From NCBI GenBank assembly GCA_020050435.1, contig JAGVKQ010000005.1:124001-188000 (forward strand): a DNA stretch of 64,000 bases, given 5' to 3'. Shown here piece after piece: positions 10,643 to 58,173 of the stretch; the first letter of the stretch is position 1, and each line of letters starts with the position of its first letter. The translations under genes were made by a program, and so were the position numbers. Below the pieces are notes generated by a model. The model saw only the letters and a list, made by a program, of their open reading frames with translations. It had not been told where the DNA came from and did no database searches. This stretch comes from Candidatus Caenarcanales bacterium. GTDB taxonomy: Bacteria > Cyanobacteriota > Vampirovibrionia > 2-02-FULL-35-15.

Positions 10643-10643
10643 T

Positions 10644-10663
10644 AGACTTGATTAATCAAGTCT
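10644..10663. repeat. 20-bp perfect palindrome abutting the gmhB start
   Basis: AGACTTGATT and its exact complement; CTAC follows on the plus strand. It shares the GATTAATC centre with 9979-10000. It lies immediately 5' of the gmhB ATG on the minus strand and so would fold in the ribosome-binding region of the mRNA. Confidence 0.7.
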
Positions 10664-10679
10664 CTACTGTTTTTTTGAC

Positions 10680-11396
10680 TCATGTTCTAATTATAATGTT
10701 TATTATTTGCCATAGATTTTCTACTGACCCAATAAAAGGATTAAACCTAGAGTCAGGATCATTCCCCCACTCTACAGGGAAGGGCACCACTTTGTATTTT
10801 TTCTTTACTGCAATTCTCAAGACTTCTATGTCCCACATAAATTTTTCTGTAATTAACCTGTTGAAAACATCATGTGCAATTTGTTTCTTAAAAAGTTTAA
10901 AACCACATTGAGTATCTTCTATGCCTGGGGGAATTAATTGAAATAGATGAATTAAAAGTTGAAACCCCTTAGACCCAAGCTTTCTATATAGAGGTTGCTC
11001 CCTAACTATTTTTACTTTATTTGGATCGCCTCTTCTTGATCCTATTGCTATATCATTACCTTGTTTAAGGAGCTCTATGCCTGAGAGTGCATACTTATAT
11101 GGAACACAAAGTCCAGCATCTGCTAAAAGAATAAAGCTTCCTTGAGCTTCAAGCATTCCTGTTTTAGTGGCATAACCTTTGCCTCTGTTTTTTTCATAGG
11201 TTAGGACTTTTAAGTTTGGATATTTTTCTTTAAATGCTGATGCTGTAATAAATGTATTATCTTTGCTCCCATCATTTACAATGATAAGTTCTCCTGATAT
11301 TTTAGACTCATTGAAAAATTCAAAAACTGCTTCAATATCCTTATGAATCTTTTTTTCTTCATTATAGGCTGGCATTACTATGGATAAATCTATCAT
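10680..11396 (-). CDS. Family 2 glycosyltransferase, dolichyl/undecaprenyl-phosphate sugar transferase type
   Basis: 238 residues. GT2 signature IVMPAYNEEKKI at the N-terminus, VNDGSKDNT (nucleotide-binding Asp), LLADAGLCVPY in place of the usual D-x-D block, and IAIGSRRGDPNKV with the downstream Gln/Trp region (CGFKLFK, EVLRIA). The order and the IAIGSRR motif match the ALG5/DPM-like group that moves a sugar from a nucleotide donor to a polyprenyl phosphate at the membrane face. No transmembrane segment is obvious. It overlaps the upstream oxidoreductase by 4 nt (ATGA), so the two are translationally coupled. The sugar is not predictable. Confidence 0.88.
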   Translation of the reverse strand: MIDLSIVMPAYNEEKKIHKDIEAVFEFFNESKISGELIIVNDGSKDNTFITASAFKEKYPNLKVLTYEKNRGKGYATKTGMLEAQGSFILLADAGLCVPYKYALSGIELLKQGNDIAIGSRRGDPNKVKIVREQPLYRKLGSKGFQLLIHLFQLIPPGIEDTQCGFKLFKKQIAHDVFNRLITEKFMWDIEVLRIAVKKKYKVVPFPVEWGNDPDSRFNPFIGSVENLWQIINIIIRT

Positions 11397-12400: not shown

Positions 12401-12481
12401 TAAATTATCATATGTGATTATATCGTATTTATAAGCTCGGATCCTTAAATCTACTATAATAAATCATGAAGGATATAAAAA

Positions 12482-13612
12482 ATGAAAGTTTTAGTTAAAG
12501 GTGGTGCAGGCTTTATTGGTTCACATACAGTGGATCTTTTATTAAAAAAAGGATATGAGGTTAGAGTTTTAGACTTACTTCAAGAAAGAGTTCATCCTTT
12601 CGGTAAACCTAAATATTTACCTTCTGAAGTAGAATTTATGCAAGGCGATGTAGCTGATAAGGCTATTATGGAGAAAGCATTGTCTGGTGTAGAAGGCGTT
12701 TTTCATCTAGCGGCCTACCAAGACTATATGACTGACTTTAGTAACTTCATTAGGGCAAATACATTAAGCACTGCTCTTATTTTTGAAATTATTGTAGAAA
12801 AGAAATTAAATATTAAAAAAATTGTCTCAGCTTCTTCTCAGGCTACTTATGGTGAGGGAAAATATGAATGTAAAAATCATGGCATTCAGTATCCTGAAGG
12901 TAGAACAGTCCCTCAGCTAGATAAAGCAGATTGGGAAATGCATTGTCCTGTTAATGGATGTAATGAATACTTGAAACCTGTTTTAATTGATGAAGCTGTA
13001 ATGAATCCATTTACTGCTTATGGTATCTCAAAAGAAGCCCTGGAAAGGGTGGCTCATAAACTCGGGAGAAGATACACCATTCCTACTTCATGTATGAGAT
13101 ATTCTATCGTTCAAGGACCTAGAAACTCTTTCTTTAATGCTTATTCAGGGGTTTGCAGAATATTTACCCTTAGAATAATAAATGATAAAGCACCTGTTAT
13201 TTATGAAGATGGAAAACAATTAAGAGATTACTTGCATGTTTTAGATGTAGCCGCTGCTAATGTTCTTTGTTTTGAAGACAGCAGAGCTGATTATGAATCA
13301 TTCAATGTAGGTGGAATTGCTGAAACTAATCTCATCGATTACACAAATACTTTGATTAAAGTTGCTGGAAAAAATATAGAACCACTAATTCCTGGTTACT
13401 ACAGATATGGAGACACTAGACATACTGTTTCATCCAGTGAAAAATTGAAAAAACTTGGCTGGAAAAATCAATATACTTTGGAAGATATTTTTAGAGACTA
13501 TATAAAATGGGTAAATGAGCAACCTGACGTGAAAGATCGTTATGATGAAGTCGAAGAGATAATGAAAAAACAAAGTGTCTTAAGACAGTCAAAATCCTCA
13601 GTAAAACTATGA
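12482..13612 (+). CDS. NAD-dependent NDP-sugar epimerase (dTDP-L-rhamnose 4-epimerase-like)
   Basis: Extended short-chain dehydrogenase, 376 residues. GGAGFIGSH (7-15) binds [13 protein letters not shown] holds the catalytic Ser/Thr, and YGISKEAL is the YxxxK pair. Between them lies an insertion of about 55 residues with Cys and His (YECKNHG ... MHCPVNGC) that could bind zinc. The same kind of insert is known in the dTDP-L-rhamnose 4-epimerase-like subgroup, which is the basis of the suggested substrate. The residue after MKVLV is Lys rather than the usual Thr of TGGAGFIG. It overlaps the following flavoprotein by 4 nt. Confidence 0.88.
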
Positions 13613-15216
13613 CACAAAAAAAAGCAATTATTATAGGTGCTGGACCAGCAGGTCTAACTGCAGCTTATGAGTTTTTAGAAAAAACAGATATTCAACCCAT
13701 TGTCTATGAAATGAGTGAATATATGGGTGGCATAGCTAAGACAGTAAATTACAAGGGAAATAGAATTGATATAGGTGGACATAGATTTTTTTCAAAGTCT
13801 GATGTAGTTATGAATTGGTGGCAAAAAATCATGCCCATTCAAGGGGCTCTGTCAAAAGATGACTTAATTTTAAATATTAACTATCAAGGGAAAACTAGAG
13901 ATGTTCAGCTTTCAAAAAGTGGACCAGATCCTGAGAAGAATAATCTTGTAATGTTGATTAGAAAAAGACTTTCAAGAATATTTTTTCTTAGAAAGTTTTT
14001 CAACTATCCTGTTTCTTTATCAGCTGAAACCATTACAAACCTTGGTTTTGTAAGACTTATAAAAATAGGAATAAGTTATGTATTGATTCGACTTTTCCCT
14101 ATTAAAAAAGAAAAGTCACTTGAAGATTTTTTTATAAATAGATTTGGAAAAGAACTCTATGAAACATTTTTTAAAGACTATACTGAAAAAGTCTGGGGTG
14201 TTCCTTGTAATGAAATAAAACCAGAATGGGGGGCTCAGAGGATAAAAGGTTTATCCATTACTAAGACACTTCTTCATGCCATTAAAAAATTGGTAAAGGC
14301 GCCCCACCGGGACGCCTCTACTTCTATATCGCAGAAAGATACAGAAACTAGTCTCATAGAAAGATTTATGTATCCTAAGCTGGGTCCAGGACAATTATGG
14401 GAAGAAGTAGCCAGAATAATTAAAGAAAAGAATGGAGAAATCCACATTAATAAAAAAGTGATAGGAATTAACTATGATGGTGAAAAAATAAAAAGTATAA
14501 AAATTAAAGATATAAAAACAAATGAAGTAAGTGATATAGAAGGAGATTATTTCTTTTCTACCATGTCGATTAAAGACCTTATTAATTCTTTTAATGGTTC
14601 AGTGGATGATGATGTTAAGAGAGTTGCAAATGGCTTGCAATATAGAGACTTTATAACTGTAGGACTATTGCTGAAAAAGCTAAAAATTAAAAATCAAACT
14701 ACATTTAAAACTGTTAATAATGTAGTGCCTGACAATTGGATATATATTCAAGAAAGAGATGTAAAAATTGGAAGATTGCAGGTATTTAATAACTGGAGTC
14801 CATATTTAGTAAATGATTTAAATACTGTGTGGCTTGGGCTTGAATACTTCTGTAATATTGGTGATGAGCTTTGGAGTAAGGCTGATGATGAGTTTATAAA
14901 GTTTGCCATTGATGAGTTGGTGAAAATAGATATTATAGAAAAAGCTGATGTCTTAGACAGTACTATTCTTAGAGTTGAGAAAACTTATCCTGCTTATTTT
15001 GGAACATATGATGATCTTTATGTAGTGAAAGATTTTGTGAATAAAATAGATAACTTGTATTTAGTGGGTAGAAATGGGTTGCACCGATATAATAACCAGG
15101 ATCACTCCATGTTAACTGCTATTACTGCAGTAGAAAACATCATTAATGGAGTTAAATCCAAAGAAAATATTTGGTCAGTTAATACTGAAGAAGATTACCA
15201 CGAGGAGAAGAAGTGA
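13609..15216 (+). CDS. UDP-galactopyranose-mutase-like FAD-dependent oxidoreductase
   Basis: 535 residues. FAD-binding [15 protein letters not shown] (8-22), the E at the end of strand 2 (VYEMS), GGIAKTV and [12 protein letters not shown] are those of NAD(P)-binding amine-oxidase/UGM-like proteins common in glycan loci. [17 protein letters not shown] is typical of this subgroup. The C-terminal [18 protein letters not shown] closes the FAD fold. About seven codons near residue 230 derive from a palindromic repeat (14297-14317) without breaking the frame. Translationally coupled to the epimerase upstream by a 4-nt overlap, so probably part of one NDP-sugar modification step. A distant relative lies at 40603. 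Confidence 0.9.
14297..14317. repeat. Palindrome inserted in frame in the flavoprotein gene
   Basis: AGGCG-c-CCC-acc-GGG-a-CGCCT followed by CTAC; the core is the CCCAxCGGG seen in 33-57 and 3884-3907. It is translated as part of KAPHRDAST and lies in a variable stretch of the protein. Confidence 0.65.
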
Positions 15217-36543: not shown

Positions 36544-37161
36544 TTAAACTTTTGCCGTGGTTTTAACGCTTTCCCATTTCATTTCATTTAGCTGAATGTC
36601 AGGGTGTGAAACTATAAGATGCCATACGATTGCTTGAAACTCTTCAGCGTGTGGTGTGACAGTTTCAGGGGTTAAAACAGGGATTAAAACACAAGAATCT
36701 GCCACTTGTTTTGTAAAACCACCATCTCTGCTTACTATGCCAATAATTTTTGACCCTGCTTCTTTTGCTAATTTTAAAGCAGTAACAAGATTAACGCTTA
36801 TATTTTTTTCTACATTTCCGCCACCAACTGAAAAAACTAAAATAGTATCTTTTGAATTTAAATTACTTACTTTTAGCCAGTTAGAAAAAACGGAATCCCA
36901 GCCATCGTCATTTGTTCTGGCTGTTAACTCGGAGACATTATCTGTCGGTGCATAGGATTCAATTTTTGCTATTTTTCTGAAATCGTTAACAGCATGAGAA
37001 GAATTTCCTGCGCTTCCTCCTACTCCTAATATAAAAAGTCTACCTTTGTTGCTTCTTGTATTGATTAAAATATCTACAGCTTTTTTAATCTCATTTTGGT
37101 CTAACATTGATGCTATTTTTGATGTTTGTTCTAAATAAGTTTTAATATAATTTTCTGACAT
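36544..37161 (-). CDS. gmhA: SIS-domain sugar isomerase, probable sedoheptulose 7-phosphate isomerase
   Basis: 205 residues of the GmhA-like SIS family. GVGGSAGNSSHAVNDF (about 47-62) binds the sugar phosphate, and LVFSVGGGNVEKN is the second Ser/Gly loop. HAEEFQAIVWHLIVSHP near the C-terminus matches the GmhA region with the active-site Glu and His. It would turn sedoheptulose 7-P into D-glycero-D-manno-heptose 7-P. Divergent from the nucleotidyltransferase and kinase genes of the same proposed pathway, 121 bp apart, a shared regulatory gap. Identification as GmhA rather than another SIS isomerase rests partly on these neighbours. Confidence 0.82.
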   Translation of the reverse strand: MSENYIKTYLEQTSKIASMLDQNEIKKAVDILINTRSNKGRLFILGVGGSAGNSSHAVNDFRKIAKIESYAPTDNVSELTARTNDDGWDSVFSNWLKVSNLNSKDTILVFSVGGGNVEKNISVNLVTALKLAKEAGSKIIGIVSRDGGFTKQVADSCVLIPVLTPETVTPHAEEFQAIVWHLIVSHPDIQLNEMKWESVKTTAKV

Positions 37162-37282
37162 AAATAATCCTTTCAGTAAGCTTATACCCTTAGTATAGCG
37201 ATCTTATAAGAATATTTAATTATCTGTAACAAATCCCCTTTGCCCCTTTGCGTATTATAATCATTAAGGGTTTATACAGAAA

Positions 37283-37996
37283 ATGAAAGCATTAATACTT
37301 GCAGCAGGCTTAGGAAAAAGGCTTGGTTTAAAAGACCTTCCTAAACCAATGTATGAAATTAATGGAAAACCCATACTTGAACACAATATTTTACTTTTAA
37401 AAAAACATAATATAGAAGATATTTTTATTAACCTTCATTACATGCCTGACGTGATTAAAAACTACTTTGGAGATGGAAAAAAATGGGGAGTAAATATTCA
37501 GTACTCATATGAAAAAGAACTTCAGGGGACAAGCGGTGCTCTAAAAAAAATAGAAGATTTTTTTACCAGAGAGTCATTTTTTGTGATTTATGGAGATAAC
37601 TATACAGAAATTGACTTAACAGATATGATGGGTTTTCATAAAATCAATAATGCAATTGCAACTGTTGGAGTTTTTGACCCTGAAAAAAGTCTAAATTCTA
37701 GAATAGCTGGTGGTATTGTAACGATTGATCAAAATAATAATTTAAATTCCTTTATAGAAGGGAGTAGAACTAAAATAAAAGGGTATGTAAATGCTGGTGT
37801 ATATGTTTTAGAACATGGAATTTTGGATTTTATACCCACTGAAAGACCCTCTGATTTTGGGAATGATATTTTTCCTCAACTTTTAATAAAAGGATTTCCA
37901 GTGAAAGCATATTTAACAAAAAGTTTTGTAATAGCTATTGATACTCAGGATGCTCTTGATGTAGCTTCAAGAGTTGTTGAAGAAGGAGGAATTTAA
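37283..37996 (+). CDS. hddC: Sugar-1-phosphate nucleotidyltransferase, HddC-like
   Basis: 237 residues. ILAAGLGKRLGLKDLPKPM is the nucleotide-binding signature of sugar nucleotidyltransferases; YGDNYTEID holds the metal Asp, and GYVNAGVYVLE the substrate loop. The closest functional type by size and context is D-glycero-D-manno-heptose 1-phosphate guanylyltransferase. The kinase gene follows at once, with its ribosome site inside the last codons of this gene. The exact NTP and sugar are not proven by sequence. Confidence 0.85.
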   Translation: MKALILAAGLGKRLGLKDLPKPMYEINGKPILEHNILLLKKHNIEDIFINLHYMPDVIKNYFGDGKKWGVNIQYSYEKELQGTSGALKKIEDFFTRESFFVIYGDNYTEIDLTDMMGFHKINNAIATVGVFDPEKSLNSRIAGGIVTIDQNNNLNSFIEGSRTKIKGYVNAGVYVLEHGILDFIPTERPSDFGNDIFPQLLIKGFPVKAYLTKSFVIAIDTQDALDVASRVVEEGGI

Positions 37997-37997
37997 A

Positions 37998-39053
37998 ATG
38001 ATAATGACTAGAACACCTTTCAGGATTACTCTTGGTGGAGGTGGCACAGATCTTCCTTCTTACTATAGCCAGTTTGGTGGCTTTGTTTTTTCTGTAACTC
38101 TTGATAAGTACATGTACATTAATTTAAACACTCCAATAGTTGATGACATGATTAGAATTAAATATTCCAGATATGAAGAAATTTTTGATGTTGAAGAAGT
38201 TCAGCATGACCTTGCTAGAGAAGCTTTAAAATTGATGGGAGTTAAAAATGCAATAGAAATCCAATCAATGGCTGATATTCCTTCTGGAACAGGACTTGGC
38301 TCTTCTGCTTGTTATTTAGTGGGACTGTTAAATGCACTCCACTGTTATAAAAATACTTCCGTGTCTCAGCAAGAGCTTGCTGAAGAAGCGTGTAAGATAG
38401 AGATGAATATTTTAAGACATCCAGTTGGTAAGCAAGATCAATATTTGGCAGCTTTTGGTGGCTTTACCATTTTAAATATAGATAAAGAAGGCAAAGTCAA
38501 AGTAGATAGACCAAGTATTTCTGAGGAAGTAATTGATGAATTAGAAAGCTCTCTTCTTATTTATTACACTCATACGACTAGGTCTACAGCTGAAATTTTA
38601 AAAGAACAAAGCAATTCAGTTCAGGATAAAAAGTCTGTTTCACATCAGGCAGTTGTAGAAAGTTTGCATCAGATTAAAGAAATAGGTTATAAAACTTTAG
38701 ATGCAATCACCAAAGGAAACTTAGATGAATTTGGAAGATTGATGGATACTCACTGGAAAATGAAGAAAAGACTTTCTTCGAAGATTTCAAATTCACAAAT
38801 TGATGAAATGTATGAAGTAGGTATGAAGAACGGCGCTCTTGGCGGAAAAATCCTTGGTGCTGGCGGTGGTGGCTTTATACTTTTTTATTGCCCTAAAGAA
38901 AAACAAGCACAATTGACAAATGCAATGTCAGCTTGTGGTCTTAAAAGAATGAGATTTAGGTTTGATTTTGATGGTTCAAAAGTAATGATGAATGTATTTA
39001 ACAGAAGGCAATCCCTTCAGAGAGAACTTACCTTAGCTCAAGTAGGAAACTAA
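37998..39053 (+). CDS. hddA: GHMP-family sugar kinase, heptose-7-phosphate kinase-like
   Basis: 351 residues. The start chosen is ATG 37998, because AAGGAGG lies 8 nt before it and the upstream alternative (37974) would overlap the previous gene. Begins TRTPFRITLGGGGTDLPSYY, typical of HddA/LmbP kinases. The ATP loop is DIPSGTGLGSSACYLVGLLNA, and the C-terminal GHMP motif is LGAGGGGFILFYCP. It would phosphorylate D-glycero-D-manno-heptose 7-P at C1. Its length agrees with HddA. Coupled to the nucleotidyltransferase before it, and 9 nt before a membrane protein gene. Confidence 0.88.
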   Translation: MIMTRTPFRITLGGGGTDLPSYYSQFGGFVFSVTLDKYMYINLNTPIVDDMIRIKYSRYEEIFDVEEVQHDLAREALKLMGVKNAIEIQSMADIPSGTGLGSSACYLVGLLNALHCYKNTSVSQQELAEEACKIEMNILRHPVGKQDQYLAAFGGFTILNIDKEGKVKVDRPSISEEVIDELESSLLIYYTHTTRSTAEILKEQSNSVQDKKSVSHQAVVESLHQIKEIGYKTLDAITKGNLDEFGRLMDTHWKMKKRLSSKISNSQIDEMYEVGMKNGALGGKILGAGGGGFILFYCPKEKQAQLTNAMSACGLKRMRFRFDFDGSKVMMNVFNRRQSLQRELTLAQVGN

Positions 39054-47709: not shown

Positions 47710-49041
47710 ATGTATAAACCAAGTCAAAAGCCGACTTCAAAAGTTCTTGAATTGATATTTTTATCCTTCCTAATAGTATTTAATATAAATAATTTTATTA
47801 AATACTCCCCTTATTGGGGGTTTGATGGTCCAGGTCACATATACCTAATTAGATATATATCAGAGTTTTGGTCTTTCCCTAAAGAGATGGTTTATGGAGT
47901 TTCCAACCCCCCTCTTTATTATTTTCTAGCTGCTGTATTGTTAAAAATCTTCAATAATATAAAAATTGTTCAATTATTTTCACTCATACTATATTTTATT
48001 GATCTCTACCTTCTAAGTAAGTGTATAAATGTTTTGTCAAAAAATACAATCTTAAACTATTCTGTATTATGTTTTTTTGCTTTACTCCCTTTGAATCTCC
48101 ATTATGCTTACATGATATTCAACTACCCTCTAGGGCATTTTTTTGCAATTTTAATAATTTATTTAATGATTGACTCTTTCTTGAAAGAGAGTCTTAGCAA
48201 AAAACAAATAGTTTTAATTAGTTTATTAACTATCCTTTCTATACTTACAAGTCTTACAAATTTAATATTTCTACCACTTCTTATCATTTATTTAGTCCTT
48301 TTTCCTTATTTAAATTTAAAACACAAATTAAGTGCAATTTTAATAGTTGCTTTTGTAAATGCTTTATTTTTATATCCTTATTATGTTTATAAGGTTAATT
48401 CGTATGGAAATTTTCTCCATATAACCCATAGAACGAAAAATAAAGTAAATATTTCAGAGCTTTATAAAACTTACCCTCTAAAGTTTTATTATAATTTTGA
48501 TTTAAATTCTTTTAATTTGCCATATGCACCAAATTATATGAAAGATGGAATGTGGATTTTATTACACCAGACTCTTTATAGTGATTACTTTAATTATCAA
48601 GTAGATTCCAAGCATAGTTCAGATACAATACCTACAAAGGGTTTAATTAATACGGGACAACATTATATTGATAAAGATAAAGCAATGAAATTTACGGGGC
48701 TTAATTATATGGGGATTCCAATTTCATTTTTCTTTTTAATAGTAATACTTAGCAGTCTTAAAAATAGCTTTTTATTTATTTTAGATCAAAAAAAAACAGA
48801 ATATTTTTTAGATCTAATTTCTTTAACCGCGATATTATTATTTTTTGTGCAGTTTTTAGTTTATATTCTTCAATACCCTTCCTACGTTAACATTAGCTCG
48901 GGCTATATCTTCCCTGCAATCTTTATTCTGTGCATAAACTTAGCTATAAAATTCAAGTCTAACTTAGTTCAAAATATTATCTCTTTGTGTTTATTTATGT
49001 TTTCTATAATGTCTTACTATACATTTTTTAGGAGTTACTAA
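47710..49041 (+). CDS. Polytopic membrane protein, GT-C glycosyltransferase-like
   Basis: 443 residues, about ten helices. The first outer loop carries GFDGPGHIYLIRYISE and then SNPPLYYFLAAV, the D-x-x-x-H plus H/NPPLYY pattern shared with the 61492 protein (NHDYGGHLEYSQI ... YHPPLYYLI), typical of PMT/ArnT-like GT-C enzymes. Opens a seven-gene operon ending at 55793. Followed by gtrA after 4 nt. Confidence 0.83.
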   Translation: MYKPSQKPTSKVLELIFLSFLIVFNINNFIKYSPYWGFDGPGHIYLIRYISEFWSFPKEMVYGVSNPPLYYFLAAVLLKIFNNIKIVQLFSLILYFIDLYLLSKCINVLSKNTILNYSVLCFFALLPLNLHYAYMIFNYPLGHFFAILIIYLMIDSFLKESLSKKQIVLISLLTILSILTSLTNLIFLPLLIIYLVLFPYLNLKHKLSAILIVAFVNALFLYPYYVYKVNSYGNFLHITHRTKNKVNISELYKTYPLKFYYNFDLNSFNLPYAPNYMKDGMWILLHQTLYSDYFNYQVDSKHSSDTIPTKGLINTGQHYIDKDKAMKFTGLNYMGIPISFFFLIVILSSLKNSFLFILDQKKTEYFLDLISLTAILLFFVQFLVYILQYPSYVNISSGYIFPAIFILCINLAIKFKSNLVQNIISLCLFMFSIMSYYTFFRSY

Positions 49042-49045
49042 TTCT

Positions 49046-49459
49046 ATGTTTTTAAAAAATCTTAAACCTCAAACAATGTTAAAATCTCAAATTATGTTAT
49101 TTTTCATTGTTGGCAGCACTGCTACTGTAATTAACTACTTGGTTTTTTATACTTTTTTGGAATTTTTTCATATAATGTACATAGTCTCTAGCGTTACAGG
49201 TTATATGGCTGGAGTTTTATTTAGTTATTATTTAAATTTTAAATATACTTTCTCTGCAGAGAAAGATGTTATCTTTAAAAAAATGCCTATATATATCAGT
49301 GTTTATTTACTCTCTTTACTGCTTAGCTCTTTACTTTTATATATTCTTGTTGATTATCTAAAGCTTGCCCCTAAATTGTCAAATATCTTTGCTATTTTAC
49401 AATCATCTGTAACAAACTATCTTGGATGTAGGTATATTGTTTTTAGGACGAACAAATAA
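49046..49459 (+). CDS. gtrA: GtrA family membrane protein
   Basis: 137 residues with four membrane helices. IMLFFIVGSTATVINYLVFY and the later VSSVTGYMAGVLFSYYLNFKYTF match the GtrA signature, including the N-F-x-Y/W-T-F ending of helix 3. GtrA proteins are thought to help move polyprenyl-phosphate sugars across the membrane. Located between two GT-C genes and downstream of the GtrB-like GT2 at 45066. One nt overlap with the next gene. Confidence 0.92.
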   Translation: MFLKNLKPQTMLKSQIMLFFIVGSTATVINYLVFYTFLEFFHIMYIVSSVTGYMAGVLFSYYLNFKYTFSAEKDVIFKKMPIYISVYLLSLLLSSLLLYILVDYLKLAPKLSNIFAILQSSVTNYLGCRYIVFRTNK

Positions 49460-51489
49460 TGCAGAGAACTAAAATTTTTACTTTTGTTTTATTACTAAAA
49501 ATTCTTTTTTCTTTTTTCTTTGCCTCGCTTTATTTAAGAGATTTATTTACACCTTTTGTTAATTGGTTTGTAATTTCTGGATTTAACAATCCTTGGGACT
49601 TTTTCTATTCTATTGGCGAATTAAAAATGTTTCCATATCCTAGTGTAATGCTTTGGATAATGGCAATTCCTAGAATTATATTTAATCCTTTTTTATCTGG
49701 AGACTGGCATGTAGTATCGAATTTTCATTTACTTATAATGAGACTTCCTCTTCTTTTCTTTGATATTTGTTTATATAATACTTTTCTTAAGCTTTTCCCT
49801 ACAAAAAAAGACTTGGTTCTATATTTTTACTGGTGTTCTCCAATTGTATTTTTTATTAACTATATACATGGACAACTTGATATTATACCTACAGCTATTT
49901 TTTTCTATGCACTTTTTCAATTAACAAGTAAAAAATATTTTCAATCTATTGTTTTCTTTGCACTAGCAACTGCTACTAAATCGCACATTTTGATCTTTAT
50001 GCCATTTGTATTTTTGTTTCTCTATAGACAAAGAATTAAAATTTCTATAATAATAAAGTTCATACTTTTTTACTTTCTTTTTTATTTTCTATTGATTTCC
50101 CCCTATATATTCTCAGAATCCTTTATTCAAATGGTTTTTAAAGCTGCAGAACAAAAAAGATTATATGAATTCACTATCCCAATTTCAGAATCTTTAAAAT
50201 TAGTTGTATGTCCAGTTGTTCTATTTCTTTTATTTATGAAATTTTCTTCTTACAAGAAATTAAATAATGAGATTCTATTGATGTTTGGCGGTATAGTCTT
50301 TGCATGTTTTGTAATTTTTGTTACACCTATGCCTGGGTGGTTTTTGTGGTCATTGCCATTTTTAATTTATTTCCATATAAATAATCGTGAATTTTCATTG
50401 GCTCCATTTGCAATTTATAATCTTATATATATTCTATACTTCACACTGTTTTTTGAAAAAGATTATTCTTTTTTAAAGAAAATAACTGATATAGATCTAG
50501 TTAACAATGTTGCTTTGTCTGTAATTCTTTCTTCTATAGGGTTTACGGCAATATGGATGTATCAATCTGGTATTAGAAGAAATGAAGAATTAAAAATTAA
50601 AGAAAAATCTTTACTTGTTGGTATAGGTGGAGATAGTTCTAGTGGAAAACACTCTTTGTATGATGCTCTGAAGGCTTTACTGGGAGAAACTTTTTGTGTT
50701 CCTGTGTATGGAGATAATTTCCATAAATGGGAAAGAGGAAATAGAAATTGGGAAAATTATACTCATTTAAATCCTTTTGGAAATAAGCTTCATAAAAATG
50801 TAGATATAGCCGTTTCATTAAAAGAAGGAAATATGGTCGAATTCTCTGAATATGATCACAAAACTGGTCAATTTACTAATCCTAAAACCGTTGAGTCTAA
50901 TAAATATGTTTTCTTTATAGGACTTCACCCATTCTATTTAAAGAAAATGAGAGACCTCATTGATATTAAAATTTTCATGAATGCAGATGAAAAGCTCAGG
51001 CAATTTTGGAAAATACAAAGAGATGTTTCTAAGAGAGGCTATGATAAATCAAAAGTTCTTGAACAAATAAGCTCTAGGGCAGAAGATAGAGACAAATTTA
51101 TTTTGCCACAAAAAAACTTTGCTGATCTTATGATAAATTATCATCCTCTTCAAGAAATTAATCTAAATGAAATAGAAAAAATAAAAGATTTGAAAATTAA
51201 AGTTCAATATGTTTTTGAAAATAGTGTTGATGTCGATAAATTAGTTCACTTACTTGAGGAAGTGAACACTTTGCTTGTGTATCATAATCATGTGGATGAT
51301 TTGACTCATCAGGAATTGCATATATCTGGTGAAATAAGCAAAGAAGAGATTTTTAATATATTTCAAAATCTAGGCTTAAACTCTGATGAATTGCTATTAC
51401 AAACACCAGTGTGGTTTGATAATTATAATGGAATTAATCAGTTAATTTTTATGATAATCTATAATCAAAAGATGAAGGCTAAGTCTTGA
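49459..51489 (+). CDS. Fusion of a GT-C-like membrane domain with a phosphoribulokinase/uridine-kinase-like P-loop domain
   Basis: 676 residues. The first 370 hold about ten membrane helices with GFNNPWDFFYSIGELKMFPYP in the first loop, as in mannosyltransferase-like GT-C proteins. From about residue 383 a soluble kinase-like domain begins: VGIGGDSSSGKHSLYDAL is a Walker A loop with His in place of the usual Ser/Thr after Lys; VYGDNFHKWERG, HLNPFGNKLHKNVD and EYDHKTGQF parallel the phosphoribulokinase order (D-D-Y-H, N-x-P, Y-N-H-x-T-G). SRAEDRDKFILPQ follows. The last 90 residues are a separate alpha/beta tail. Such a fusion is unfamiliar to me. The aldolase gene starts at a TTG overlapping this stop by 4 nt. 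Confidence 0.82.
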   Translation: MQRTKIFTFVLLLKILFSFFFASLYLRDLFTPFVNWFVISGFNNPWDFFYSIGELKMFPYPSVMLWIMAIPRIIFNPFLSGDWHVVSNFHLLIMRLPLLFFDICLYNTFLKLFPTKKDLVLYFYWCSPIVFFINYIHGQLDIIPTAIFFYALFQLTSKKYFQSIVFFALATATKSHILIFMPFVFLFLYRQRIKISIIIKFILFYFLFYFLLISPYIFSESFIQMVFKAAEQKRLYEFTIPISESLKLVVCPVVLFLLFMKFSSYKKLNNEILLMFGGIVFACFVIFVTPMPGWFLWSLPFLIYFHINNREFSLAPFAIYNLIYILYFTLFFEKDYSFLKKITDIDLVNNVALSVILSSIGFTAIWMYQSGIRRNEELKIKEKSLLVGIGGDSSSGKHSLYDALKALLGETFCVPVYGDNFHKWERGNRNWENYTHLNPFGNKLHKNVDIAVSLKEGNMVEFSEYDHKTGQFTNPKTVESNKYVFFIGLHPFYLKKMRDLIDIKIFMNADEKLRQFWKIQRDVSKRGYDKSKVLEQISSRAEDRDKFILPQKNFADLMINYHPLQEINLNEIEKIKDLKIKVQYVFENSVDVDKLVHLLEEVNTLLVYHNHVDDLTHQELHISGEISKEEIFNIFQNLGLNSDELLLQTPVWFDNYNGINQLIFMIIYNQKMKAKS

Positions 51490-52301
51490 GCAGTATTATA
51501 AAAGAATTAGTTGAATTATGCCAATATTCTGGAGAAGGTAAGCATCCTTTTTTTGTTCAAGGAGGAGGAGGCAATTGCTCTGTAAAGTTGGATGGAAAAA
51601 TGGCAATTAAAGCATCGGGCTATTTTTTGGAAGATGTCAATGAAAAAGATGGTTATGTTGTTGTAGATTTAAAGACAAAACAGATTTTAGAAAATACACA
51701 TCTTAGACCTTCTCTGGAAGTCAGTATCCATTACTTATTGGGATCACATGTAATTCACACTCATCCTTTATTATTAGGCCCTTTAATTTGCTCATATGAA
51801 GGACAGGAAGAGTTTAAAAAACTTTTTCCTGAAGAAAACTTTTTTTGGATTCCTTATGCCGCTCCAGGAAGTAATCTATTTATAAAGATTGAAGAAGTTT
51901 TAAAAGATAAATCTTTATCAGGTAGTGTAGTTCTATTCTTGGAAAATCATGGTTTATTTGTTTCAACTCAAAATCAGCAAGAATGTATAAAGTTGCATGA
52001 ATCCATAATTAATAAGATGAAGGACTTTTTCAACTGTTCAGGCAGCCCGTTAAAAAAAGACATTAAAGTTTGTGGCTTCTTAACACCAGACCATATAGTT
52101 TATTCATCCACAGATTTAACTAAACTTTCAGGAAAGTCAAAAATTGCTTTTGAGGAGTTGGAATCTTATTCAGCTTACGTTCTTTCGTTGATAGACACTA
52201 AGAAATGGAATGCTAAATATCTAACAAGTGAAGAAATTTCATTTGTTAAAAATATGGAAGAAGAAAAATACAGACAAAAACTTTTGGAAAAAAACGAATG
52301 A
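51486..52301 (+). CDS. Class II aldolase/adducin-family protein
   Basis: 271 residues from a TTG start coupled to the kinase fusion. GGGGNCSVKLDGKMAIKASGYFLEDV, LRPSLEVSIHYLLGSHVIHTHPLLLGPL (zinc His pair H-x-H) and VVLFLENHGLFVS (third zinc His) follow the fuculose/rhamnulose-phosphate aldolase and L-ribulose-5-P epimerase family. The catalytic Glu is present in the SLEVS segment. Probably acts on a phosphorylated keto-sugar or polyol precursor made or used by the neighbouring kinase and nucleotidyltransferases. Reaction not known. Confidence 0.88.
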   Translation: MSSIIKELVELCQYSGEGKHPFFVQGGGGNCSVKLDGKMAIKASGYFLEDVNEKDGYVVVDLKTKQILENTHLRPSLEVSIHYLLGSHVIHTHPLLLGPLICSYEGQEEFKKLFPEENFFWIPYAAPGSNLFIKIEEVLKDKSLSGSVVLFLENHGLFVSTQNQQECIKLHESIINKMKDFFNCSGSPLKKDIKVCGFLTPDHIVYSSTDLTKLSGKSKIAFEELESYSAYVLSLIDTKKWNAKYLTSEEISFVKNMEEEKYRQKLLEKNE

Positions 52302-54574
52302 AGATTTTAATTCCTATGGCTGGCAGAGGACAAAGATTCTTAGATGCTGGTTACGATACGCCTAAACCACTTATTGTTGTAGATGGAAAAACAATCATAG
52401 AACATGTAATTCTTAACTTTTCTCAGGATGATGATTTTGCTTTTGGGTGCAACGAACAACACTTAAAAACTACAAATATGGAAGATCTCTTAAGAAAGAA
52501 TACTTCAAAATTGCAAATTATTCCCATGCCTTATAAAAAAGAAGGTCCCATATATGGTTTGAGAAAAATGATCAATGAAATTAATGATGATGAAAAGACT
52601 GTAGTTAATTATTGTGATTTTTCCTGGAAATGGGATTACAATGACTTTAAAAATAAAATTAGAGAAACAGATTGTGATGGAGCAGTTATTTGCTATAAGG
52701 GATTTCACCCACATCTTCTAGGAGAGGGAAATTATGCCACTCTTGATTCTAATGGTTTATGGATGAAAGAGATTAAAGAAAAGCATAGCTGGCATAAGAC
52801 AAAATTTGAAGACTGGAGCAGTTCAGGTACTTATTACTTTAAAAAGGGAGCATATTTAAAAAAATATTTAGCAGAAATTGAGAAGAGGCCTGAGTGGAAG
52901 ATAAATGGTGAGTTCTACGTGAGTCAGCTTTTTCAGTTAATGAAAGAAGATGGGCTAAATATTTATATTTATGAAATTCCTTTTATGCTGCAATGGGGTA
53001 CTCCACAGGATCTAGAAGAATATAATTACTGGTCAGAATATTTTAATAGCACTAGATTTAAAGATGAATCTAAAAGGAATATGAATGTAGTTATTCCTAT
53101 GGCTGGAGCTGGTTCTAGGTTTTCAAAAGAAGGATATGATGCCCCAAAACCATTAATTAAAGTAGATGACACGCATATGGTAATTCGAGCTGTTGAAGAC
53201 CTCCCTAAAGGGGATAACTACTCTTTTATTTTAAGAAAAGAACATACTAAGGAAACTAATTTAGAGAGTATTCTAAGAAACAGATTTAAAAATACAAATG
53301 TTATCCCTATAGACTATTTAACAGAAGGTCAGGCTTGTACCGTTTTATTAGCAAAAGATCATATTCATAATAATTCTTCTCTTTTAATTGGAGCATGTGA
53401 CAATGGCATGACTTTTAATGCCAATAAATTTAATGAGTCTATTCGTTCAGCTGATGCACTGATTTTTACTTTTAGAAATAATCCGATCGTAAAAAGAAAT
53501 CCTCAAATGTATGGATGGGTAAAGGTGGATAAAAACAATAAAGCTATAAATGTTTCTGTTAAAGTACCCATAAGTGATAATCCTATTAAAGATCATGCAG
53601 TTGTTGGATCATTTTGGTTTAAAAGAGGTTCAGATTTTGTAAGTTGTACTGAAGAAATGATTAAGTCTAATGACAGAATTAATAATGAGTTTTATGTGGA
53701 CAATTCCATGAATTACTTAATTAAAAAAGGACTAAATGTTTATGTCTTTGAAATTGATAAGTATATTTGTTGGGGAACACCAAATGAGTTAAAAACATAT
53801 GAGTACTGGCAAAGATTTTTTGAAAGCAATTTAAAAACAAGTGTAAAATTGTCTATAGTTGTTCCTTGCTACAATGAAGAAAAAAACATTCCCTTTATAG
53901 TAGAAAGATTCTCAGCTATTTTAAATGATAGAAAAGATATTGAACTAGTTTTAGTTGATAATGGATCTTCAGACAAAACTGGAGAAATAATTGATATAGA
54001 AATAAAAAAGCATAACTTAAATGCAAAAAAGGTTATTGTTAAACAAAATCAAGGTTATGGATTTGGCATATTGTCAGGGCTGAATGAAGCTTCAGGAGAT
54101 GTTCTTTCTTGGACACATGCTGATCTTCAGACTGATCCAGAGGATGTACTTAAAGCATATGAGCTTTATAATGGTGAAGCTAAAATTCATAGTAAAGTCT
54201 TTGTAAAAGGACATAGAAAAAACAGAAAATTAACAGAAAAGTTCTTTTCCTTTGGAATGCAAATCTTATCTAGTCTGTGCATAGGTGTATATTTATCTGA
54301 GGTTAATGCTCAGCCAAAACTCTTTTCTCGTGAGTTTTATAAGCTCTTTAAGTCCCCTCCTTATGACTTTTCTTTGGATTTATATGTTTTATACTTAGCC
54401 AAGAAAAATAATTATAAAATCTTTACCTTGCCTGTTTACTTTAAGGATAGAATTTACGGTGAAGCTAAAGGCGGCGGCGGATCAGATTTAAAAACAAAAT
54501 GGAAATTAATTAAAAGAACATTTAAATATATTTTAGAATTAAAAGAGAAAATCCAAAAAGGTGAAATTGTATAA
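52298..54574 (+). CDS. Triple-domain protein: two nucleotidyltransferase domains fused to a GT2 domain
   Basis: 758 residues. Domain 1 (1 to about 255) starts KILIPMAGRGQRFLDAGYDT and domain 2 (about 262-510) NVVIPMAGAGSRFSKEGYDA; both are NTP-transferase folds with KPLI, a metal-site motif (VNYCDFSW and LIGACDNGM) and similar endings (WGTPQDLEEYNYW, WGTPNELKTYEYW). Domain 3 (about 515-758) is a GT2 with LSIVVPCYNEEKNIPFIVE, LVDNGSSDKTGE and HADLQTDPED. An activation step and a transfer step in one chain are thus likely, perhaps with two different NDP-substrates. Overlaps the aldolase gene by 4 nt and the next by 1 nt. Confidence 0.87.
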   Translation: MKILIPMAGRGQRFLDAGYDTPKPLIVVDGKTIIEHVILNFSQDDDFAFGCNEQHLKTTNMEDLLRKNTSKLQIIPMPYKKEGPIYGLRKMINEINDDEKTVVNYCDFSWKWDYNDFKNKIRETDCDGAVICYKGFHPHLLGEGNYATLDSNGLWMKEIKEKHSWHKTKFEDWSSSGTYYFKKGAYLKKYLAEIEKRPEWKINGEFYVSQLFQLMKEDGLNIYIYEIPFMLQWGTPQDLEEYNYWSEYFNSTRFKDESKRNMNVVIPMAGAGSRFSKEGYDAPKPLIKVDDTHMVIRAVEDLPKGDNYSFILRKEHTKETNLESILRNRFKNTNVIPIDYLTEGQACTVLLAKDHIHNNSSLLIGACDNGMTFNANKFNESIRSADALIFTFRNNPIVKRNPQMYGWVKVDKNNKAINVSVKVPISDNPIKDHAVVGSFWFKRGSDFVSCTEEMIKSNDRINNEFYVDNSMNYLIKKGLNVYVFEIDKYICWGTPNELKTYEYWQRFFESNLKTSVKLSIVVPCYNEEKNIPFIVERFSAILNDRKDIELVLVDNGSSDKTGEIIDIEIKKHNLNAKKVIVKQNQGYGFGILSGLNEASGDVLSWTHADLQTDPEDVLKAYELYNGEAKIHSKVFVKGHRKNRKLTEKFFSFGMQILSSLCIGVYLSEVNAQPKLFSREFYKLFKSPPYDFSLDLYVLYLAKKNNYKIFTLPVYFKDRIYGEAKGGGGSDLKTKWKLIKRTFKYILELKEKIQKGEIV

Positions 54575-55152
54575 TGCTTTATATTAGACATAGAATTAAT
54601 ACAGTAAAAGACTTAAAAACAGTACCTAGCGATATGGGAATTGAGCTTGATTTGCGGTATGAGGGAGATAAACTAATTCTTCATCATGATCCATTTGTAA
54701 CAGGAGAGCTTTTTGAAGATCTGCTAAAAGAATATAATCACAAAATGATAATTTTAAATGTAAAAACTGAGGGTATTGAAGAAGAAGTTTTAAGGTTATT
54801 GAAAAAATATAATGTAAAAGACTATTTTTTCTTAGATGTATCTTTTCCTGCTTTAATAAAGCTAGCAAGATCAGGTGAAAAAAACATTGCTATTAGATTT
54901 TCAGAATACGAACCGATAGAGCAATGTATATTTGTAAAGGATATGGTTAGCTGGGTTTGGGTGGATTGCTTTAATAAACTACCTTTAGACGATAAAATCT
55001 ATAAAGAATTAAAAGCAAATTTTAAAATTTGTCTAGTTTCCCCAGAACTACAAAAATACCCTATAGATAAAATAGAAGAGTTTAAAGAGATTATTAAAAA
55101 TTATGATATAGATGCCATCTGTACAAAGGTTCCAGATGTATGGAAAAAATAA
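54574..55152 (+). CDS. Glycerophosphodiester-phosphodiesterase-like protein
   Basis: 192 residues, shorter than typical GDPD (about 240). IRHRIN at the N-terminus, GIELDLRYEGDKLILHHDPF with the E-L-D metal motif and the H-H-D pair, and ILNVKTEG, which stands where GDPDs have N-I-E-x-K. It lacks the usual small insertion domain and the E-N-T after H-R, so it may hydrolyse an unusual phosphodiester or act on a carrier-bound glycan. Overlaps the next gene by 13 nt. Cytoplasmic, no signal. Confidence 0.72.
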   Translation: MLYIRHRINTVKDLKTVPSDMGIELDLRYEGDKLILHHDPFVTGELFEDLLKEYNHKMIILNVKTEGIEEEVLRLLKKYNVKDYFFLDVSFPALIKLARSGEKNIAIRFSEYEPIEQCIFVKDMVSWVWVDCFNKLPLDDKIYKELKANFKICLVSPELQKYPIDKIEEFKEIIKNYDIDAICTKVPDVWKK

Positions 55153-55793
55153 AACTCTCAAAAGAAATAAAGAATAAAAAAGTTATTTTACTTGATATGG
55201 ACGATACTATTTATGAGTACAAACCATGCCATGACTTTGCACTAGAAAAAGTCTATGAGATTTATAAAAAAAAGAGAAAATCAATATCTTACAACTCATT
55301 TCTTTTAAAGTATGAAAATGCTAAAAAAGAGGTAAAAAAACTTACTAAAAATCAAGGCGCCAGCCATTCAAGATTCTTATATTTTCAATATATGCTAGAA
55401 AATGAGAGTAAAAAAACAATATTTTCTGAGACGCATTTACTAAGTAAAATATACTGGGATTCATTTATAAAAAAAATGACTTTAAATAAATGGGTTATTC
55501 CATTTTTGAAGAACTGTAAGAAAAATCATAAGAAAGTGGTAATTGTTACTGATTTAACCAGTGAAGTCCAGTTTAGAAAAATAATTAAACTAGGAATAAA
55601 AAACTATATTGATTTTATAGTCACCTCTGAAGAGGCTGGTATAGAAAAACCATCAAATATTATATTTAAATTAGCACTGTCTAAAATAGGTGAAAAAGAA
55701 AAAGCAGCTATTATTATCGGAGATAGTTATAGTAAGGATAAATCCTCACATATAAGGTCAATAATTTTGAAAGATAAAATCGTTGTAGTTTAG
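55140..55793 (+). CDS. HAD-family phosphatase
   Basis: 217 residues. Motif I LLDMDDTIYEYKP (nucleophile D, second D at +2), motif II VIVTDLTS, Lys in EKPSNIIF and motif IV IIIGDSYSKDK. The cap is a helical insert at about 25-95. Lys-rich. It would remove a phosphate in the small-molecule pathway of this operon. Last gene of the operon; converges on the YfhO-like gene with 13 nt between the ends. Confidence 0.87.
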   Translation: MEKIKLSKEIKNKKVILLDMDDTIYEYKPCHDFALEKVYEIYKKKRKSISYNSFLLKYENAKKEVKKLTKNQGASHSRFLYFQYMLENESKKTIFSETHLLSKIYWDSFIKKMTLNKWVIPFLKNCKKNHKKVVIVTDLTSEVQFRKIIKLGIKNYIDFIVTSEEAGIEKPSNIIFKLALSKIGEKEKAAIIIGDSYSKDKSSHIRSIILKDKIVVV

Positions 55794-55806: not shown

Positions 55807-58173
55807 TTAAAATTCATTTTTTTGATGCAATTTATTTCTACTTGTTATTATGTAATAAAAAATAAAAGAGAGAATAATTAATAGAAATCCAGCTTGTACA
55901 GAGCTCCAAAAAGATGGGGGTGCATAATCAATTGTTATTTCATTTTCCCCAGGAGGCAGATCAAACATACACCATGAATAATTAGGACTTTGAGTCAGTT
56001 CTGCTTTTTGATTATTTACTAATAAATAAAATCCTGGTCTGTATTGCCTGTGGTATTCCCAGGAAGTTTTTTCTGTAGAAACTATTTTTGCTTTAAATAT
56101 ACTGTTAGGGGATTTAAGGACAGTATATTCAATCCTTGTGTCAGAATTACTGCTATCATTTCTTACTTCTCTGATTTGCCATTTTGGAGCATCTGTTGCA
56201 TAAATAATTGCATCTTGATCTTCATAGATATTTTGAAGACCATTTAATTTGTAAGTAGCAGGTTCCCAACTAGTAGATCCATTGAGTTTTTGAACAATGA
56301 TTTTTGTTATGCCAATATCTTTGAAGTATGAAATAGGGTCTGCAATCTCATTAACTGATTTATATTTTGGTATCTCATAAATAGTTGCATAGTTATCATA
56401 TGTGTGAAGATCAAATAACGTTGAAACATCATGTGGTAGAAATTTAAAATAGGGTTCATCATCCTTTCTAAAAGGTGTAATACTATAGATTATGTCGTCT
56501 TTTTGAAGACTTGAGATGAATTGTGGATCTAATGGTGGATAAGGTTTTTCACCATAAGTGTAGTATGCAGTATTAGAACCAAAGATTGCAATTGCTATGC
56601 TAATAATTATATTTATGACCGTCAAACGATTTAGCAAATTATTTAATGAAAACAGTTTTAGAGATATAAGTAATTTTTTTAGGTGCGTTAAAATTAGTGC
56701 ACCATAAATTATTACTAAAAAACTTGCATATGGATATATTTTAAAGGCGAATCTAAGTTTATTAAATGATGGAATGTAATACTTTAAACAATAAATAAGA
56801 GAAACCGTTCCTCCCGTCATAAGTAGAGTAATTATAGTTAGAACTAAAAAAGGAATAAATTTGCCTTTGCCCGTTCTCATATAAATGATTAAGGCAATAA
56901 AAAAACTAAATACCCATAAAAAACCAATATGAAATAAATTTGTCATTAAAAATGGATTTGCTCCTACCCAACCCATTGGATGGGGTGATTGTGAGAATGG
57001 ATATGGCAAAAAAGAAGATATCAATGCATCAAATGGAGCTCCATCTCTTGCTATCATTGGTTCAATAGGTCTTGTGGGTAGATCTTTTGCCCACATGAAC
57101 TGTGGAATAACAGTAGGTAGAGCTATCCCAAGACTAAATAATATTGAGCATAAATAATTTAAAAAAATACTTTTTCCATTTTTAAGCTTGAATGCTGCAT
57201 ATACATAACAGATAGCTTCTAGGATCGCTCCATAAACAAAAAATTGAAGATGTCCACCATTCGCATATATTCCACGAAGAAAACCTAAACCTATAAACCA
57301 AACCCATGATGTTTTACCAGTGTATGCTGCTTTTAGAAAAAAGAATATAAGAACAGGTAAATAACATCCAAATCCTGAAGCAAAATACCATCCTCGACAT
57401 GTAATTAGAGTAAATCCTAGAAATGTATTTGATAACATTGCTGCTATTCCGATGAGCGGATGTACTCTTAAAATAGAAAGAGAGAACCCCATAAATATTG
57501 TTCCTATTAAGAGGCAAAGAATTATATAGAAATCAAATGTATAGTAAATATTTCCGAGTATTATTTTGCAAGCAAGAAAAGAGAAAATCATTAAAGGATT
57601 AAAAAATGAATAAACGCCTTCTTCGAGCAGCTGTACTCCAAATCTTCTGTAATTATCAAACAATGGAAGGCTTCCTTCCAGCATCATTCTAATTCCAAAT
57701 AATGTTCTAGGTAGGAACTGAATCATGTTGTCATCTTGTACAAAATAAAAAGGGATTAAGCATTCGATAATTAAGAAAATAATTAGAGCAAGTAAAGTCG
57801 TAAACCAAATATGAGCTGGTTGTAAAACCAAACTACTTTTTTCTAAATCTTGATTTTCTTTCTGTTTAAAAAACGATAAAATCTTAGGACTGTATAAATA
57901 TAAAACTATTAAAGATAAAGAAAAGTAAACGGGAAGCATTTTGTAGTATGGGTTGCCAGGGACATATAGAGTGTTATAAAAGTCTACGGGTATATTTGTA
58001 TCTATGTGATTAGAGGCTAGGAAATTTGTAAACTCATTGAATGTGAAAATCCTTGGTAAGGACCAAAGAAATAATACTATTGCAACGTAAATTCCTAAAA
58101 TGTTATGAAAGTGTTTTTTTTGAAAGCTGTAAATAGCTGCCCATATCAATAATATTACGATAAGAGTTCCCAT
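55807..58173 (-). CDS. YfhO-like polytopic membrane protein
   Basis: 788 residues. About 12-14 membrane helices (to about residue 530) followed by a soluble periplasmic domain and a last helix near the C-terminus. FVQDDNMIQFLPRTLFGI in the first large loop supplies the acidic pair typical of GT-C folds, and NGGHLQFFVYGAILEA and the C-terminal FDLPPGENEITIDYAPP resemble YfhO, a GT-C-type protein that helps glycosylate lipoteichoic acid in Gram-positives. Isolated minus-strand gene between two plus-strand operons. Substrate unknown. Confidence 0.82.
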   Translation of the reverse strand: MGTLIVILLIWAAIYSFQKKHFHNILGIYVAIVLFLWSLPRIFTFNEFTNFLASNHIDTNIPVDFYNTLYVPGNPYYKMLPVYFSLSLIVLYLYSPKILSFFKQKENQDLEKSSLVLQPAHIWFTTLLALIIFLIIECLIPFYFVQDDNMIQFLPRTLFGIRMMLEGSLPLFDNYRRFGVQLLEEGVYSFFNPLMIFSFLACKIILGNIYYTFDFYIILCLLIGTIFMGFSLSILRVHPLIGIAAMLSNTFLGFTLITCRGWYFASGFGCYLPVLIFFFLKAAYTGKTSWVWFIGLGFLRGIYANGGHLQFFVYGAILEAICYVYAAFKLKNGKSIFLNYLCSILFSLGIALPTVIPQFMWAKDLPTRPIEPMIARDGAPFDALISSFLPYPFSQSPHPMGWVGANPFLMTNLFHIGFLWVFSFFIALIIYMRTGKGKFIPFLVLTIITLLMTGGTVSLIYCLKYYIPSFNKLRFAFKIYPYASFLVIIYGALILTHLKKLLISLKLFSLNNLLNRLTVINIIISIAIAIFGSNTAYYTYGEKPYPPLDPQFISSLQKDDIIYSITPFRKDDEPYFKFLPHDVSTLFDLHTYDNYATIYEIPKYKSVNEIADPISYFKDIGITKIIVQKLNGSTSWEPATYKLNGLQNIYEDQDAIIYATDAPKWQIREVRNDSSNSDTRIEYTVLKSPNSIFKAKIVSTEKTSWEYHRQYRPGFYLLVNNQKAELTQSPNYSWCMFDLPPGENEITIDYAPPSFWSSVQAGFLLIILSFIFYYIITSRNKLHQKNEF

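Follow-up and report, generated by a model that had tools for sequence, protein, structure and literature searches.

A horizontally spread gene cassette of Candidatus Caenarcanales that probably couples sugar-donor synthesis from a pentulose phosphate to polyprenyl-phosphate-linked glycosyl transfer

A compact run of overlapping genes in Candidatus Caenarcanales bacterium is probably a copy of a self-contained, two-module glycosylation cassette that has spread horizontally, a reading to which we give a probability of about 0.6. One module would build an activated sugar donor from a pentulose phosphate, and the other would transfer the residue via polyprenyl phosphate. Positions given here are those of the window, the whole 64,000-nucleotide stretch of DNA analyzed, and all features lie on its forward (+) strand. 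The ORF listing places five genes at 49459–51489 (gene 1, 676 aa), 51486–52301 (gene 2, 271 aa, with a TTG start codon), 52298–54574 (gene 3, 758 aa), 54574–55152 (gene 4, 192 aa), and 55140–55793 (gene 5, 217 aa). Consecutive genes overlap by 4, 4, 1, and 13 nt, so the original prediction of five genes with 1–13 nt overlaps across 49459–55793 is correct. A GtrA gene at 49046–49459, upstream of gene 1, is absent from the operon list of that prediction, although it overlaps gene 1 by 1 nt. A promoter scan found sites that were not more numerous than in shuffled sequences.

The set is co-conserved far beyond chance. All six families, namely the fusion of a GT-C-like membrane half with a phosphoribulokinase (PRK)-like domain, the HAD protein, the aldolase, the nucleotidyltransferases, the GT2, and the GDPD-fold protein, are present in 69 of 107 relative loci, and most of the remaining loci are cut by contig ends. 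A genome-neighborhood check of the original prediction therefore finds its families co-conserved. An independent search with the PRK domain returned 24 loci (L021 and L047–L069), with 19 complete, 4 cut by contig ends, and 1 where the domain stands alone. GtrA was seen in 51 of the 107 relative loci at the detection threshold used, while no further family recurred in more than 18 loci of this survey. Distances of seven families or domains are correlated, with r values of 0.45–0.74. The cassette ranges over about 20 phyla, bacterial and some archaeal, and also occurs on an IncR plasmid of E. coli and, in part, on a small number of viral contigs. Similarity extending across phyla indicates that the cassette has spread horizontally. 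The GDPD gene has more than 500 relatives in one genome collection, on which grounds a cassette limited to this genome or its class was rejected.

The C-terminal half of gene 1 (residues 386–676; 50614–51489) is phosphoribulokinase-like over its full length. PF00485 matches residues 387–567 (E = 7e-32), and the domain scores 179 bits against PRK07429, short of the curated cut-off of 236 bits, versus 78 bits against udk. PDB matches to PRKs reach 112–114 bits versus 55 bits for Udk, and the structure model fits a whole PRK including its C-terminal domain (TMt 0.77, about 310 residues). Uridine kinase identity was rejected, as PRKs score more than twofold higher by sequence and the protein carries the C-terminal domain of PRKs. 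The kinase-like domain originally predicted is refined to the phosphoribulokinase type.

The kinase domain of the window keeps D419, H422, R426, H467, K518, R521, and R526. The equivalents of D42, H45, R49, R168, and R173, which we take to be Ru5P-site positions from family numbering, are retained in about 74 of 76 relatives. At the Mg site, H398 replaces the Walker A Ser/Thr and I487 replaces the Walker B Glu, the latter being retained in only 18 of 76 relatives. Because these two residues are replaced, the activity of the window kinase is uncertain, and the domain could be impaired, altered, or inactive. The kinase site is intact in some relatives, such as the L066 family. Along its whole length the cassette kinase has the fold of Calvin-cycle PRK and the “cyanobacteria-specific PRK” (PDB 9qkn, 9qko, and 9qkp), and it shares their putative Ru5P-site residues; unlike these, it is fused to a membrane transferase, and its metal-site residues are often replaced. 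A Calvin cycle role was rejected, as the genome encodes only a RuBisCO-like protein (MtnW-like) with methionine-salvage neighbors and no true Rubisco.

Gene 5 (55140–55793) encodes a HAD phosphatase (HAD Pfam match, E = 3e-15) with D19, D21, T137, K170, and D195 conserved. Its best family is NF053830, ribulose-1,5-bisphosphate (RuBP) 5-phosphatase, at 162 bits (E = 1.5e-47; runner-up family, 92 bits), below the curated cut-off of 330 bits. Gene 2 (51486–52301) matches Aldolase_II (PF00596, E = 1.4e-15) and, by profile, 3m4r (E = 7e-24) and FucA 4c25 (E = 5e-9). Conserved residues E78, H91, H93, H155, N30, and S76 account for the Zn ligands (HxH...H), the catalytic Glu, and the phosphate-binding GN/S residues. 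These features assign gene 2 to the class II aldolases of RhaD/FucA type, a class in which its substrate specificity is not readable from sequence. The phosphatase and aldolase named in the original prediction hold up as families, narrowed here to these two types.

In haloarchaea, an equivalent HAD and FucA pair converts RuBP to DHAP and glycolaldehyde (PMC9700705). The cassette likewise sets a RuBP-5-phosphatase-like HAD beside a FucA-superfamily aldolase, and we assign its PRK, HAD, and aldolase as putative consecutive steps of this non-carboxylating pentose bisphosphate pathway. However, the cassette has a PRK-like kinase in place of the R1P kinase and R15P isomerase, its enzymes are linked to nucleotidyltransferases and glycan transfer, and their scores lie under the archaeal cut-offs. 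In variant 2 (L023 and L130), the PRK, HAD, and aldolase are swapped for a fused kinase + FBA-type aldolase + ribulose-phosphate 3-epimerase, whose chemistry would again be that of pentulose phosphates.

Gene 3 begins with two sugar nucleotidyltransferase domains. NT1 (residues 1–258; 52298–53071; NTP_transf_3, E = 3e-14) has a conserved GxGxRF/KPL motif and D107, and is a stand-alone gene in many relatives. NT2 (residues about 259–515; 53072–53842) falls below Pfam listing, but aligns to sugar nucleotidyltransferases (rmlA_long, AglF, and Arch_glmU, 53–55 bits) and to intact single-domain homologues, with D368 and K284 conserved. Gene 4 (54574–55152) has no Pfam match at all, but its AlphaFold model (pLDDT 96.5) finds true GDPDs as its best PDB matches (2pz0, TM 0.75). 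H6, R7, E24, D26, H38, and K64 are invariant, as is N62 among aligned relatives, at what we presume from family knowledge to be the third-metal-ligand position. Gene 4 resembles glycerophosphodiester phosphodiesterases (PF03009, TIM-barrel fold) in its fold and HR/ExD/H/K active-site pattern. It differs in its length of 192 aa, the missing usual insertion, the change of the presumed third metal ligand from Glu to Asn, and a context without glycerophosphodiesters.

The GT2 domain of gene 3 (residues 516–758; 53843–54574; PF00535, E = 6.5e-20) is a proposed polyprenyl-phosphate-sugar synthase (GtrB/DPM1-like). Its best curated match is the ArnC family (57 bits), and in most relatives it is a separate gene, in some fused to GtrA. 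The GtrA-family small membrane protein (49046–49459; PF04138, E = 1e-23) is the proposed flippase. The N-terminal half of gene 1 (residues 1–385; 49459–50613) has about 10 hydrophobic segments, is helical in the structure model, and has F58, P59, Y60, D102, and D141 conserved among relatives. A homologue gave a weak GT87 match (E = 0.004), and no GT-C structure was among the 50 best Foldseek matches of gene 1. We propose that this half may be a GT-C glycosyltransferase, and that it probably forms a GtrB/GtrA/GT-C-like three-component system with the GT2 and GtrA, the latter being part of the unit.

Such systems include gtrABC of Shigella and Salmonella and the Citrobacter pentofuranose system, founder of GT136 (PMC11127046). 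The cassette resembles them in that a single operon encodes a GT2-type polyprenyl-phosphate-sugar synthase, a GtrA flippase, and a large membrane transferase, and also in its side-chain modification logic and its mobility. Unlike them, it carries its own donor-synthesis module, fuses the membrane transferase to a PRK-like domain, and has neither a PRPP-type synthase nor a MATE flippase. A PRPP-type pentofuranose system was rejected, as the synthase differs. Xylulose side chains (Yersinia/E. coli O97) were likewise rejected as the product, as the described Y. enterocolitica O:10 cluster has none of the cassette genes (PMC11380512).

The donor and transfer modules are separable. Viral contigs split the cassette into a donor module (PRK, HAD, aldolase, NT1, NT2, and GDPD) and a transfer module (GT2, GtrA, and GT-C). 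In a T4-like phage (L160), the order GDPD-ALD-NT1-NT2-PRK-HAD adjoins a DNA-base glycosyltransferase, TAGT, a likeness to T4-type phage DNA glycosylation (TAGT/beta-glucosyl-HMC-alpha-glucosyltransferase). To our knowledge, no donor pathway so far described for the sugars of phage DNA resembles this one. Other viral contigs (L166–L173) carry a direct PRK-aldolase fusion beside NT1, or a HAD-NT2 fusion. The window GDPD used as a query against phage records gave no match.

We propose the following substrates, order of NT1, NT2, and GDPD action, and transfer chemistry. The PRK-like domain would phosphorylate a pentulose phosphate, most likely ribulose-5-phosphate to RuBP, and the HAD protein would remove the 5-phosphate to leave ribulose-1-phosphate. 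The aldolase would then cleave or re-form the C3-C4 bond, giving DHAP and glycolaldehyde or a C4-epimer such as L-xylulose-1-phosphate. NT1 and NT2 would turn the resulting compound or compounds into nucleotide derivatives, and the GDPD-fold protein may work on a phosphodiester or nucleotide intermediate. Finally, the GT2 would put the residue onto polyprenyl phosphate and GtrA would flip it, after which the N-terminal half of gene 1 would move the residue to a surface acceptor outside the membrane. We know of no mechanism that accounts for the need of two nucleotidyltransferases and a GDPD, and we counted this against our explanation. Also weighing against it are the PRK and HAD scores under their curated cut-offs, the replaced Mg-site residues of the window kinase, an aldolase specificity not readable from sequence, and the lack of GT-C structures among the Foldseek matches.

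The Mg-site replacements in the window and many relatives, the resemblance of NT2 to hexose-1-phosphate nucleotidyltransferases (RmlA/AglF), and an aldolase nearer RhaD than Ru1P aldolase would also suit a three-component system with an ordinary or slightly modified aldose donor. The PRK-like domain would then be a kinase of another sugar or a degenerate regulatory domain, with the HAD and aldolase acting on other sugar phosphates. We consider this unlikely, given the near-universal retention of the putative Ru5P site, the clear preference of the HAD for RuBP phosphatase, and the recurring phosphopentulose theme in variant 2. It is improbable that PRK, HAD, and aldolase instead dispose of or salvage a pentulose phosphate that the glycan chemistry sets free, turning it into DHAP and glycolaldehyde without building the transferred residue. 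The homologous haloarchaeal pathway is indeed catabolic, but this branch is inherited with the donor-activating nucleotidyltransferases even in phages lacking the membrane module, and the kinase-aldolase fusion adjoins NT1.

The co-conserved set supports the original prediction of a compact pathway in which an uncommon sugar is made, activated, and attached. Its further idea that the attached unit is phosphorylated or a polyol is not supported, and a teichoic-acid-like pathway, in which a phosphorylated polyol or alditol would be activated as its NDP derivative and then attached, is more improbable still. Such a pathway accords with nucleotidyltransferase domains of the broad MobA/IspD/LicC-like superfamily and with a GDPD-fold protein, but no reductase, dehydrogenase, or polyol enzyme recurs in cassette loci, and GT2/GtrA/GT-C systems are established to use glycosyl-phospho-lipids, not CDP-alditols (PMC11127046). 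Its statement that no characterized pathway has this exact set agrees with the literature searched, where we found no published description of the cassette gene set.

Beyond the two-module cassette, we tentatively raise the possibility of an undescribed class of nucleotide sugars made from RuBP outside carbon fixation, as a pentulose or an aldol-made fragment. Its mobile donor module would serve bacterial and archaeal surface glycans as well as T4-like phage DNA glycosylation. If true, Calvin-cycle-type chemistry (phosphoribulokinase and RuBP) would serve sugar synthesis instead of carbon fixation, and hundreds of genes annotated singly as “uridine kinase,” “HAD hydrolase,” “class II aldolase,” or “GDPD family” would be explained. 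It would also predict a new surface sugar, from Prochlorococcus to the host of an E. coli plasmid. Because the donor module also occurs next to a glycosyltransferase that acts on phage DNA, mass spectrometry of such DNA would give direct access to the nature of the sugar.

ORF calling reproduced the five genes at 49459-55793, with successive overlaps of 4, 4, 1, and 13 nt, and the gene set of the original prediction stands. The unit is larger, however: a GtrA-family gene (49046-49459) overlaps gene 1 by 1 nt and, by evidence from relatives, is part of the cassette. In a Pfam search, gene 1 carries phosphoribulokinase (PRK, PF00485) at its C-terminal end, behind a membrane half (proposed GT-C); gene 2 matches Aldolase_II, gene 3 matches both NTP_transf_3 and GT2, and gene 5 matches HAD. 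The search gave no match for gene 4; the best matches of its AlphaFold model (pLDDT 96.5) are glycerophosphodiester phosphodiesterases (GDPD). The genome (2.49 Mb) falls within the cyanobacterial group, on its Melainabacteria side. Large membrane proteins, YfhO-like/GT-C-like and unknown, are encoded on both sides of the cassette at 55807-58173 (-) and 47710-49041 (+); YfhO-like genes flank it also in loci L021, L047, and L060. SIS isomerase, nucleotidyltransferase, and GHMP kinase genes at 36544-39053 resemble a heptose-activation set, and genes of this type adjoin the cassette in L107 and L137. The same genome (G000, contig C27, ~127-134 kb; L002, L157) carries a set of methionine-salvage genes, among them those for a RuBisCO-like protein (MtnW-like), an MtnB-like aldolase, an MtnX-like HAD, and a dioxygenase.

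Using the PRK domain alone as query against 382 genomes of the class, we obtained strong matches in ~25 genomes, in open frames of ~600-840 aa. All six families lie nearby in 19 of the 24 PRK-fusion loci fetched (L021, L047-L069); four are cut by contig ends, and one (L069) stands alone. A GDPD-family scan with one genome per species gave 513 confirmed relatives, of which the best 80 were read. Across these and the PRK-found loci, GT-C-PRK, HAD, aldolase, nucleotidyltransferase (NT), GT2, and GDPD are all present in 69 of 107 loci. Clustering of all neighbors found no additional family in more than 18 loci, so the cassette consists of six families plus GtrA. It is far more widespread than supposed, reaching plasmids, viral contigs, and ~20 phyla, among them Bacteroidota, Bacillota (Paenibacillus, Virgibacillus, Lachnoanaerobaculum), Pseudomonadota, Prochlorococcus, and archaea. 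Correlation between the family distance matrices is r 0.45-0.74. The closest relatives can belong to different phyla, as with Paenibacillus, which is nearest to Poseidonibacter and Flavobacterium (~60% identity). The NT-NT-GT2 fusion of the window was seen elsewhere only in the same taxonomic family (L047/L070).

A complete eight-gene cassette is found on a small E. coli IncR plasmid from human stool (NZ_CP145712.1; L150:6022-14984), encoding NTNT, GtrA, GT2, GDPD, a “uridine kinase,” HAD, aldolase, and one unknown membrane protein. It is present in 2 of 5426 E. coli genomes; the second isolate, with a near-identical cassette, has frog (Aquarana catesbeiana) as its recorded source. Hirschia and Azospirillum plasmids also carry the cassette.

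The chemistry is more specific than the uncommon phosphorylated sugar or polyol originally proposed, with a PRK-like domain, a HAD resembling ribulose-1,5-bisphosphate (RuBP) 5-phosphatase, and a RhaD/FucA-like aldolase. The kinase domain scores 112-114 bits against solved phosphoribulokinases versus 55 against uridine kinase; with curated families the two scores are 179 and 78 bits. The alignment of its model with PRK extends across ~310 residues and takes in the C-terminal domain. Equivalents of the PRK catalytic Asp and substrate-site His/Arg, assigned by their numbering and presumed roles in PRK, are invariant in 73-75 of 76 homologues. Mg-site residues vary in this set: at the Walker A Ser/Thr position 16 have Asp and 4, the window copy among them, have His, while the Walker B Glu is retained in only 18, with Ser in 41 and Ile in the window. 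Because of these replacements, the window domain is a putative kinase only. The HAD protein matches RuBP 5-phosphatase best, at 162 bits versus 92 for the next family and below the cut-off of 330; every cassette relative tested likewise has it as the best HAD family, at 110-201 bits. The aldolase has the full set of metal and catalytic residues. Exactly such a HAD and FucA pair in haloarchaea turns RuBP via ribulose-1-phosphate (Ru1P) into DHAP and glycolaldehyde (PMC9700705). Given this pair and the family assignments, the three activities (kinase, phosphatase, aldolase) fit a run of consecutive steps on pentulose phosphates.

Pentulose-phosphate chemistry is carried by different enzymes in an independent second variant, seen in L023 (Prochlorococcus-like genome) and L130 (Pacearchaeon), where a single fused protein of kinase, FBA-type aldolase, and ribulose-phosphate 3-epimerase adjoins NT-NT and GDPD. 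The L130 cassette (3711-14473) adjoins phosphonate genes: PEP mutase, phosphonopyruvate decarboxylase, Fe-alcohol dehydrogenase, and CDP-alcohol transferase. A reduced variant in LPS/capsule regions has the GDPD-like protein, a beta-PGM-like HAD, and nucleotidyltransferases without kinase or aldolase (L024:5857-8823, L025:7459-10239, L026:7106-9991; plasmid loci L153-L155).

The directly supported part of our model comprises the families, their conservation, the fusions, and the modularity. Ribulose-5-phosphate would be converted to RuBP and then Ru1P, followed by aldol cleavage or C4 epimerization. NT1 and NT2 would provide activation, with the GDPD-fold protein probably acting on a phosphodiester intermediate; GT2 would then load polyprenyl phosphate, GtrA would flip it, and the membrane half of gene 1 would perform the transfer. 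One chemically consistent idea, which we do not claim, is that two NTs and a GDPD turn a ketose-1-phosphate into an anomeric (C2) donor, which would call for an initial nucleotidyl transfer, then a phosphodiester step and a further activation. On a par with it is a donor that is a two-carbon or three-carbon fragment.

The 112-kb viral contig L160 (IMGVR_UViG_3300001485_000223), which encodes a T4-type baseplate protein and a terminase-like protein, has a compact GDPD-ALD-NT1-NT2-PRK-HAD run (3600-9005; ALD, aldolase) with a stand-alone PRK and without GT2, GtrA, or GT-C. Directly downstream is a TET-associated DNA glycosyltransferase (TAGT; PF20691 above cut-off; PHROG beta-glucosyl-HMC-alpha-glucosyltransferase). 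Together with this six-enzyme module, it suggests an unknown DNA sugar in a T4-like phage. L161 has a similar enzyme set near thymidylate-synthase-like and dUTPase genes. On viral contigs L166-L173, PRK is fused directly to the class II aldolase, adjoining NT1 or a HAD-NT2 fusion; domains were scanned in L166 (fusion at 8992-10353), L168 (8965-10404), and L172 (8810-10123) and assigned by homology in the rest. Since viral contigs separate the parts, the six enzymes form a donor module able to serve a cytosolic transferase. We know of no described counterpart to this module, and a search of openly accessible papers found none on the gene set. Bacteria couple the donor module to GT2-GtrA-GT-C, a part with the same architecture as three-component periplasmic glycosylation (PMC11127046). 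Architecturally, the cassette adds a new variant to the three-component glycosylation systems.
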